Source: an uncultured Polaribacter sp.
GTDB taxonomy: Bacteria > Bacteroidota > Bacteroidia > Flavobacteriales > Flavobacteriaceae
Direction of reading: 5' to 3'
NCBI RefSeq assembly: GCF_947496195.1
Contig: NZ_CANMBY010000002.1
Coordinates: 310,001 to 374,000 of the forward strand
DNA length: 64,000 nucleotides
The position numbers and the translations under genes were made by a program. Under the pieces are notes generated by a model. That model saw only the letters and a program-made list of their open reading frames with translations, did not search any database and was not told the DNA's origin. Shown here one piece after another: positions 41,298 through 50,450 of this stretch; position 1 is the first letter of the stretch; each line of letters starts with the position of its first letter.

Positions 41298-42104
41298 ATG
41301 AATCTTACATATTTTGATGTAAAAGAAACTTCTCATTTAGTAGAAGAATTTTATCACATTTCTTACACTAAAGAAAAAACACCTTTAAAAACAACTATGA
41401 TACCTTATGGGGTTTCTGGTTTAACATATATTTTTGGAAAAGGGCAAAAAACATTAAATAATAATGTTGAAACCAAATTAGAAAATTTAGTTATTAATGG
41501 TCAGTTCACTAAATCTTATGATTTTATTGTAGACGAACCAGGCTTCTCTATAGGTGTAAACTTTAAACCAACAACTCTACACAAAATAACAAATGCAGAT
41601 TTGTCGACATTTACTAATAAAAATAGCTCTTTTAAAATTTTAAATGAACAATTATCAACCAATCTTGAAAAGATATTTTTAACCTATAAAGAAGATAAAA
41701 ATCTACTCTTTTCTAAATTAGAAGAATTATTCTTAACGTTAAAATTGGCAAACAATAAAAAAATAGAAATTGTAGACGAAACACTAGAAATGATAAAAGA
41801 AGAAGAAGGATTATTAAGTGTAAACGATCTACTAAAAAAAGTTCCTTTTAGCCAAAAAACATTAGAAAATAATTTTAAAAAAATGGTTGGATTAACACCT
41901 TCTAAATATATCCGAATTCAAAGATTCTTAAATCTTATGAAAAAATATGAAAACAATACAATAGACTTTAAAGATTTAATTTATATGTATAATTATTATG
42001 ATGAGTCTCACTTTGCTAAAGACTTTAAGTCTTTCACTTCTAAATTACCTAAAGATTATTTTACAGAAGACTTTTCTATAATGAAAGAAGCTTTCAAAAA
42101 ATAA
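41298..42104 (+). CDS. AraC-family transcriptional regulator
   Basis: 268 residues. The N-terminal part (about 1-150) resembles the DUF6597/AraC-type ligand domain of flavobacterial regulators (YGVSGLTYIFGKG, then FSIGVNFKPTTLHKI). The C-terminal AraC DNA-binding domain (about 165-260) has two helix-turn-helix units: SVNDLLKKVPFSQKTLENNF with a GLTPSKYIRIQRFL linker, then the second around YYDESHFAKDFKSFTSKLPKDYF. Inducer and targets unknown. Palindromes lie just upstream, and the candidate small RNA is immediately downstream. Confidence 0.88.
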   Translation: MNLTYFDVKETSHLVEEFYHISYTKEKTPLKTTMIPYGVSGLTYIFGKGQKTLNNNVETKLENLVINGQFTKSYDFIVDEPGFSIGVNFKPTTLHKITNADLSTFTNKNSSFKILNEQLSTNLEKIFLTYKEDKNLLFSKLEELFLTLKLANNKKIEIVDETLEMIKEEEGLLSVNDLLKKVPFSQKTLENNFKKMVGLTPSKYIRIQRFLNLMKKYENNTIDFKDLIYMYNYYDESHFAKDFKSFTSKLPKDYFTEDFSIMKEAFKK

Positions 42105-42144: not shown

Positions 42145-42233
42145 TAAATTTACGTGTAAGTTATCAAATAGTTTTGGGGGAAACTATAATTGATATATGA
42201 AGAGTTGGTTTTTAAAACCAACTCTTTTTTTTT
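42145..42233 (+). ncRNA. Candidate small RNA: G-rich-loop hairpin plus intrinsic terminator
   Basis: A -7-like TAAATTTA (42145-42152) is followed by a hairpin whose lower stem is TATCAA / TTGATA (42162-42167, 42190-42195) and upper stem ATAGTTT / AAACTAT (42168-42174, 42181-42187), with a two-base bulge and a TGGGGG loop. Six bases later comes a strong terminator: AGAGTTGGTTTT and its complement (42201-42212, 42214-42225) then nine T. The predicted transcript of about 75 nucleotides contains no open frame. It lies 40-130 bases after the AraC gene and before an independent gene. Structure is read from sequence; transcription and function are inference, and it could instead be the AraC 3' end. 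Confidence 0.5.
42201..42233 (+). terminator. Intrinsic terminator of the AraC gene / candidate small RNA
   Basis: Twelve-base perfect arms (42201-42212 and 42214-42225) followed by nine T. Confidence 0.9.
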
Positions 42234-42296
42234 GCAAAAGTGTCACATTAGAAGTTTCTTTTTGTCTTTAAATAAAAGAATTAAAAATAATATAAC

Positions 42297-43079
42297 ATGA
42301 AACTAAAAATTACTTTAATAATTTGCTTTTTAACTACCACAGTTTTTTTAGCTCAAAAAACAGTAAATGCTTCAGATATTTTAAATGATATTAAAGCAGG
42401 AAAATCTATTACTTATAAGAATGCAAAAATTGTGGGTATATTAGATTTTACTTATATGGATGAAGCAATGCAAAAACTACCAAAGAAGAGAAAAAATAGT
42501 TGGTGGGGTAACAACAATACTAATGAAATTAAAAAACTAATAGAGGTAGGTGTGTCTTTTGAAAACTGTACATTCGAAGATGACGTTTTAGCCTACATCC
42601 CAGATGAAGATTCAGGATATACTTTTACTGCAAGTTTTGAAGATATTGTAATTTTTAAGAACTGTAATTTCGAAAGAAAAGCTATGTTTAAGTACTCTCG
42701 TTTTGAAAGAGATTCAGACTTTTCTGGGTCTACTTTTAATGATGATAGCACATTTAAATATGCAAAATTTGATAGAGATATTAGTTTTGCTAACACTAAA
42801 TTTGTAGAAGTAGCAACATTTAAATATTCTAAATTTAGAAATAATGTAAGTTTTGCAAATTCAGTTTTTGAAGATTCAGCAATATTTAAATACACTCAAT
42901 TTAATGATGGAGTTTCTTTTAGAAACACAGATTTTCAAGAAGATTTAAATATTAAATATATGAACGTTTCTGGTGAATTTGATATCACAAAAATGAAAGT
43001 AGGTTATGATGTTGACTCAAAGTACACTAAAATAAATGGTAAGAGTTTTAATAAATATTTACTTTCAAGTAAAAATTAA
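42297..43079 (+). CDS. Secreted pentapeptide-like repeat protein with an 11-residue period
   Basis: 260 residues with a signal peptide (1-20, ending VFLAQ). From about residue 85 aromatic residues recur with alternating spacings of five and six (FKYSRF, six on to F, then five), giving units of 22 residues that start FKYS, FKYA, FKYS, FKYT. This suggests a right-handed beta-helix built on 11-residue half-turns rather than the uniform five-residue pentapeptide coil. The N-terminal part (SDILNDIKAGKSITYKNAKIVG) resembles the cap of similar Bacteroidetes proteins. Periplasmic or surface location; function unknown. A terminator follows. Confidence 0.8.
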   Translation: MKLKITLIICFLTTTVFLAQKTVNASDILNDIKAGKSITYKNAKIVGILDFTYMDEAMQKLPKKRKNSWWGNNNTNEIKKLIEVGVSFENCTFEDDVLAYIPDEDSGYTFTASFEDIVIFKNCNFERKAMFKYSRFERDSDFSGSTFNDDSTFKYAKFDRDISFANTKFVEVATFKYSKFRNNVSFANSVFEDSAIFKYTQFNDGVSFRNTDFQEDLNIKYMNVSGEFDITKMKVGYDVDSKYTKINGKSFNKYLLSSKN

Positions 43080-50427: not shown

Positions 50428-50450
50428 TATTATTTGGGGAAGTTTATTTT

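Follow-up and report, generated by a model that had tools for sequence, protein, structure and literature searches.

To our knowledge, little has been learned so far about post-transcriptional control in Bacteroidota, bacteria that rely little on Shine-Dalgarno sequences. Among their multicopy families of small RNAs (sRNAs), the one studied best, FopS, belongs to gut Bacteroides. Elsewhere, the LhrC-type sRNAs of Listeria are paralogues with near-identical loop seeds that pair at ribosome binding sites, their C-rich loops being directed against the G residues of the Shine-Dalgarno sequence, while Rsm/Csr sponge RNAs hold GGA in hairpin loops and occur in several copies per genome.

According to the available portion of its description, FopS from Bacteroides thetaiotaomicron comprises multicopy paralogous sRNAs of about 65-70 nt, expressed from house-keeping-type promoters (PMC11697453). 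The same source reports that these RNAs, found in Bacteroidaceae, bind around start codons and block translation, that their seed (R1') lies in the 5' region, and that their targets are mainly susC-like mRNAs, the first genes of PULs (PMC11697453). Further marks of FopS membership would be binding of the RbpB/RRM-1 protein and sequence similarity to GibS R1. Within Flavobacteriaceae, the accessible part of the report on Rfp18 from Flavobacterium psychrophilum presents a conserved structured sRNA whose third stem-loop is predicted to pair with several mRNAs, the targets being metalloproteases (PMC9723704).

The locus analysed here lies in a 64-kb stretch of Polaribacter DNA (the window) at C2:310001-374000 of the genome labelled G000; other G-numbers designate genomes and L-numbers loci. 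Like FopS, it is a short candidate RNA with a promoter-like box of its own and belongs to a family with many paralogues (at least six in G000 and 25 in three genomes, with tandem copies). Judged from sequence, 16 of 70 complementary C5 sites, a share above chance, are situated 7-40 nt before ORF starts, where the RNAs may bind as FopS does. In contrast to the 5' seed of FopS, as far as its description is available, the G5 run of the Polaribacter RNAs resides in a hairpin loop, and a link with an adjacent AraC gene does not figure in that part of the FopS account. Because of the different seed position, the family is kept apart from FopS, a comparison of descriptions rather than of sequences. 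Also by description, and within what is accessible on Rfp18, both are structured Flavobacteriaceae sRNAs that would pair via one stem-loop. Contrary to LhrC, the loops are G-rich and the C5 is in the mRNA; contrary to the Rsm/Csr sponges, each RNA holds a single motif. The features of the locus, together with three complementary leaders encoded in the same genome, are collected in the table.

Features of the candidate sRNA locus in the window and complementary leaders in G000
Feature	Position	Strand	Remarks
DUF6597 + AraC-type HTH regulator	41298..42104	+	Pfam PF20240, PF12833, PF00165; candidate sRNA regulator, linked with upstream motif
Activator-like site ATACGAAAATTTACAA, degenerate TTACGATTTTTTACAA	42108..42123	+	4 mismatches here
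-7 promoter element TAAATTTA	42145..42152	+	TAnnTTTR or near match in every copy, similarly spaced from the hairpin
Predicted sRNA transcript, ~75 nt	42158..42233	+	start inferred; end taken as the terminator T run
Seed hairpin, bulged stem	42162..42195	+	fold and covariation in 13 copies
UGGGGG loop, proposed seed	42175..42180	+	almost every copy has TTTTGGGGGAA; other leaders contain the complementary TTTCCCCCAAAA / TTCCCCCAA
Intrinsic terminator	42199..42233	+	stem 42199-42227, 13 pairs, T run to 42233
Secreted pentapeptide-repeat protein	42297..43079	+	Pfam PF13576; downstream neighbour, outside the sRNA
Complementary leader L115			HEAT-repeat gene
Complementary leader L111			PadR-like gene
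Complementary leader L118			41-aa frame upstream of cbb3 oxidase subunit gene

The layout agrees with the original prediction, which had described a promoter-like box, a bulged hairpin presenting UGGGGG and a strong terminator, with no open frame that fits. In fact, no ORF of at least 40 aa overlaps the element on either strand, the longest small frames having 24 and 23 codons, and the box deviates from the Bacteroidetes -7 consensus TAnnTTTG in its last base alone. Folding of a 96-nt stretch yields -25.9 kcal/mol versus -12.7 for shuffles (z = -5.1), and 2 kb contain two terminator-like sites, where shuffled sequence would lead one to expect 0.3. The loop is best described as a UGGGGG hexaloop closed by a U-A pair, with its G5 at 42176-42180; thermodynamic folding offers as an alternative a U-G pair with a GGGG tetraloop. 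Runs of at least five G or C occur just four times within the window, where covariance models of 4227 Rfam families gave no match at gathering thresholds. The covariance model R1, of which the window sequence is itself a part, matches 42149-42233 with 81.7 bits. The conserved box and the terminator support a separate structured small RNA, as had been claimed, and we are confident, on comparative sequence grounds, that this conserved structured element is real and very likely represents an sRNA gene.

Searching the genus at the DNA level recovered six homologous intergenic loci, and a covariance model run over 166 genomes added further copies. Covariation was analysed in 13 type A copies from 12 genomes, that is, the window copy plus 12 copies from 11 other Polaribacter genomes, in an alignment where 90.8% of the cells are paired and which, having been fitted to the model structure, is biased towards it. 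The covariance search that the original prediction had proposed as a check bears it out within the genus, as 14 of the 23 pairs have changed on both sides and the double-change cells number 42 against 13.4 expected, a result equalled in none of 500 shuffles; sliding the partners by one column makes the score collapse. The terminator stem varies in sequence among species while keeping its pairing (10 of 12 pairs have changed on both sides). In an unfitted MAFFT alignment of seven sequences, 11 of 18 pairs show double changes. Syntenic structured copies with compensatory changes in many Polaribacter species place the element beyond chance.

In the loop, the letters UUUUGGGGGAA hardly vary among the copies. 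Since the model rewards these letters, weight falls on two AraC-linked loci chosen independently of the loop and read by eye: in G001, the AraC gene is followed by TTACGATTATTTACAA, by TTATTAGGGGTAATAA with a GGGG loop, and by a terminator, and in G063 by TTACGTTTTTTTACAA, by TTGAGTTGGGGGGCTTGA with G6, and by a terminator-like hairpin, the G run standing in both cases in a possible hairpin. The adjacent AraC proteins are just 38-57% identical, and the retention of loop and structure despite this divergence implies selection. An exact-pattern scan of 299 genomes of the family Flavobacteriaceae found no true copies outside the genus, and the top matches of model R2 that were inspected are ordinary terminators, except for a cousin in three other Flavobacteriaceae genera (L156, L158, and L159, in G197, G150, and G174). 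This cousin consists of GCTTAATTAATTGGGGAGTTAATAAAAGCGATTG plus a terminator, with a G4A loop replacing G5, and its elements sometimes stand as tandem pairs.

The element is one of several in its genome. G000 contains 23 TTGGGGGA sites and at least six elements with hairpin and terminator: L101, L104, L105, L112 (the window element), L114, and L120. Across G000, G015, and G063, 145 sites were classified by script, and the exclusion of rRNA and palindromic repeats left 70 intergenic ones. A terminator lies downstream of 25 of these 70 on the G strand, and for the C strand the count is 8 (p = 0.002). The flank-shuffled hairpin z averages -2.1 at the terminator-linked sites and is close to 0 at sites in coding or start regions. 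Paralogues elsewhere in the genomes have other neighbour genes. Copies also occur in tandem: three in Polaribacter glomeratus, two in a Polaribacter MAG, three in G063, and three variants (TTTTGGGGGAA, TTTTAGGGGAA, and TTTTGGGAGAA) in G079. The three G063 units (L271, C1:3574477-3577138), each a G5 hairpin with its terminator, are near-identical and stand at a spacing of 727 bases. Copies of a third conserved subtype, made up of GATAGAAAGTTGGGGGACTATCTATCATGAGTGAT and a terminator, can be recognized in G000, G015, and G063 (L101, L213, and L221). The exact sister motif TATAAGTTGGGGGATTTATA was found in 17 stretches, all of them Polaribacter/Flavobacteriaceae records. A single viral match to the type B motif falls inside a coding sequence, has neither hairpin nor terminator, and was taken as chance. 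A literature search found no publication on a Polaribacter sRNA among the results listed. The G5-loop RNAs appear to be an undescribed family of gene-silencing sRNAs in this genus.

Regarding the control of these RNAs, TTACGATTTTTTACAA is near-perfect in the copies of other species that adjoin an AraC gene, 62-76 nt upstream of TTTTGGGGG. Similarly, TTACGATTWTTTACMA appears with 0-2 mismatches in the AraC-adjacent copies of G015, G051, G416, G445, G425, G076, and G462, and in the three of G079, 62-76 nt before the loop, versus 4-6 mismatches in type A copies without an adjacent AraC gene and 4 in the window copy, an association noticed after the fact and covering about a dozen loci. Elsewhere in these genomes, exact TTACGATTWTTTACMA matches are rare and fall mainly in apparent coding stretches. 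G063 is an exception, since there TTACGATTWTTTACMA directly precedes the AraC gene. The motif TTACGATTTTTTACAA is probably the binding site of the DUF6597/AraC regulator.

Sequence context also favours the proposal that the G-rich loop seeds pairing with C-rich targets. Among the 16 sites at which TCCCCCAA precedes an ORF start (at least 40 codons), 13 lie at 7-13 nt. Random intergenic positions give a background of 8.3% (p = 0.0002), and the opposite (G) strand gives 2 sites (p = 0.0007); a single motif, applied to three genomes, served to pick these start-region sites, and those at related loci are not independent. Raw pattern counts against a reversed-pattern control were dropped as evidence, given that the control motif ACTCCCCAA...ATG was likewise "enriched", its matches lying seemingly mostly within coding sequence; the counts were replaced by the context-based tests.

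A recurrent family with such leaders comprises small membrane proteins of 72-75 aa, with C5 in 23 of 33 leaders versus 10 of the 345 starts taken as background (p about 1e-21, a value that overstates independence because the copies are related). The C run in these leaders varies from 4 to 7, and the leader AATTCCCCCAATT of the 72-aa family is able to form a short hairpin, which would make a kissing complex possible. These hydrophobic proteins, without a Pfam match, form unannotated tandem arrays in G009 (C1:1021211-1024770) and G063 (C1:1814550-1816554) and at L122-L127. C5 leaders are also shared by an alpha/beta hydrolase (G015 and G063), a membrane protein of roughly 500 aa (G015 and G079), and a 67-aa protein (G000 and G096); the AraC-type regulator AraC2 has C5 in just 6 of 30 orthologues, that of G000 among them. 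An unsystematic list of candidate targets comprises small membrane proteins, AraC, HEAT, hydrolase, LytTR, and OMP genes. In G000, the window sRNA shares 11-13 contiguous complementary bases with the three leaders of the table, including that of the 41-aa frame upstream of what, going by its sequence, is presumably a cbb3 oxidase subunit gene. Whole-molecule duplex energies are moderately better than those of shuffles (z -1.6 to -3.6), a weak discrimination, and once the cost of unfolding is counted, the ddG is small, between -2 and -6 kcal/mol.

In our analysis, the explanation that fits best, and which we hold to be rather probable, is an sRNA family acting in trans, whose G5 loops pair with C5 at start regions and so block translation. 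The window element would then encode an RNA of ~75 nt belonging to a multicopy family of Polaribacter, whose members have in common the hairpin with its U[UGGGGG]A loop and the intrinsic terminator. As the seed, the exposed G run would pair with CCCCC (TTCCCCCAA) a few nucleotides before the start codons of several mRNAs, where, by analogy with FopS, it would block ribosome access or initiation (PMC11697453). The adjacent DUF6597/AraC protein would probably control the window copy through TTACGATTTTTTACAA, ~40 nt upstream of the start. We infer transcription, pairing, repression, and AraC regulation from these comparisons, as well as a contact between sRNA and target that begins at the loop. 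If this mechanism is true, marine flavobacteria have a large paralogous sRNA family of their own, with a seed (G5) that is simple to read and targets (C5 before ATG) that can be predicted, so that the regulon is directly testable; it would also bear on how sRNAs can shut off translation in bacteria that depend little on Shine-Dalgarno sequences. A bolder version, which we consider conceivable but doubtful, sees in G5 loops and C5 leaders a genus-wide two-part code of loop kissing between U[UGGGGG]A hairpins and CCCCC start regions, in which dispersed and likewise tandemly amplified sRNAs silence the tandem 72-75 aa hydrophobic proteins. The whole would resemble a type I toxin-antitoxin system encoded in trans, or a surface-switch network, and AraC would control one of the copies.

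The element begins about 40-55 nt past the AraC stop, so that a 3' UTR with its terminator, devoid of any separate role, or a processed 3' UTR sRNA would be conceivable. The first of these is improbable given that the copies of G041 and G009 follow purL without AraC, that other sequence separates the element from AraC in G063 and G425, and that the -7 box is conserved, and that the paralogues have different neighbours. Its place directly upstream of the pentapeptide-repeat gene, on the same strand, would likewise suit a leader or attenuator, but a complete terminator intervenes, this gene is preceded by a conserved GTGTCACA...TTGTCTTTA of its own, and the sRNA is found without the gene in G009, G416, and G079, all of which leaves this reading very improbable. 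The copies lacking either neighbour, together with the tandem variants of G079, argue against both a cis leader and a mere 3' UTR.

A real RNA might instead bind a protein through its G-rich/GGA loop, in the manner of a CsrA sponge or with an RRM-type partner, and without base pairing. GGA-containing G runs are indeed kept in the G5, G4A, and G3AG variants, and several copies per genome suit titration; nevertheless, the single loop motif per RNA is unlike the Rsm/Csr sponges, and C5 on the complementary strand just before starts is left unexplained, so we judge this possibility rather unlikely. Unlikely as well is that the C5 leaders are cis elements or homopolymer tracts (a hairpin, a translation element, or slippage) unrelated to the G5 RNAs, whose targets would then differ. 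The variable C run of the small-protein leaders and the hairpin-forming capacity of AATTCCCCCAATT are in its favour, but C5 is the core complement of the conserved loop, the start-region sites are unstructured as a group (z = 0.08), and unrelated gene families share the C5 site at a similar distance to ATG.

The specific target suggested by the original prediction found no support. The sequence at 50431-50445 on the minus strand, CUUCCCCAAA, just before the response regulator's own terminator, offers only four C's, and its duplex (z = -0.7) is no better than shuffled ones. C4 or C5 directly before terminators in 3' UTRs is also seen at L117, L121, and L246, and C5 precedes such terminators at 8 of the 70 sites; these C runs might be sRNA sponges or chance. 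Downstream of the element, the GTGTCACA...TTGTCTTTA motif of the pentapeptide-repeat gene, at 42240-42271, is kept in most orthologues that have this gene, and looks like an alternative-sigma (ECF-type) promoter.
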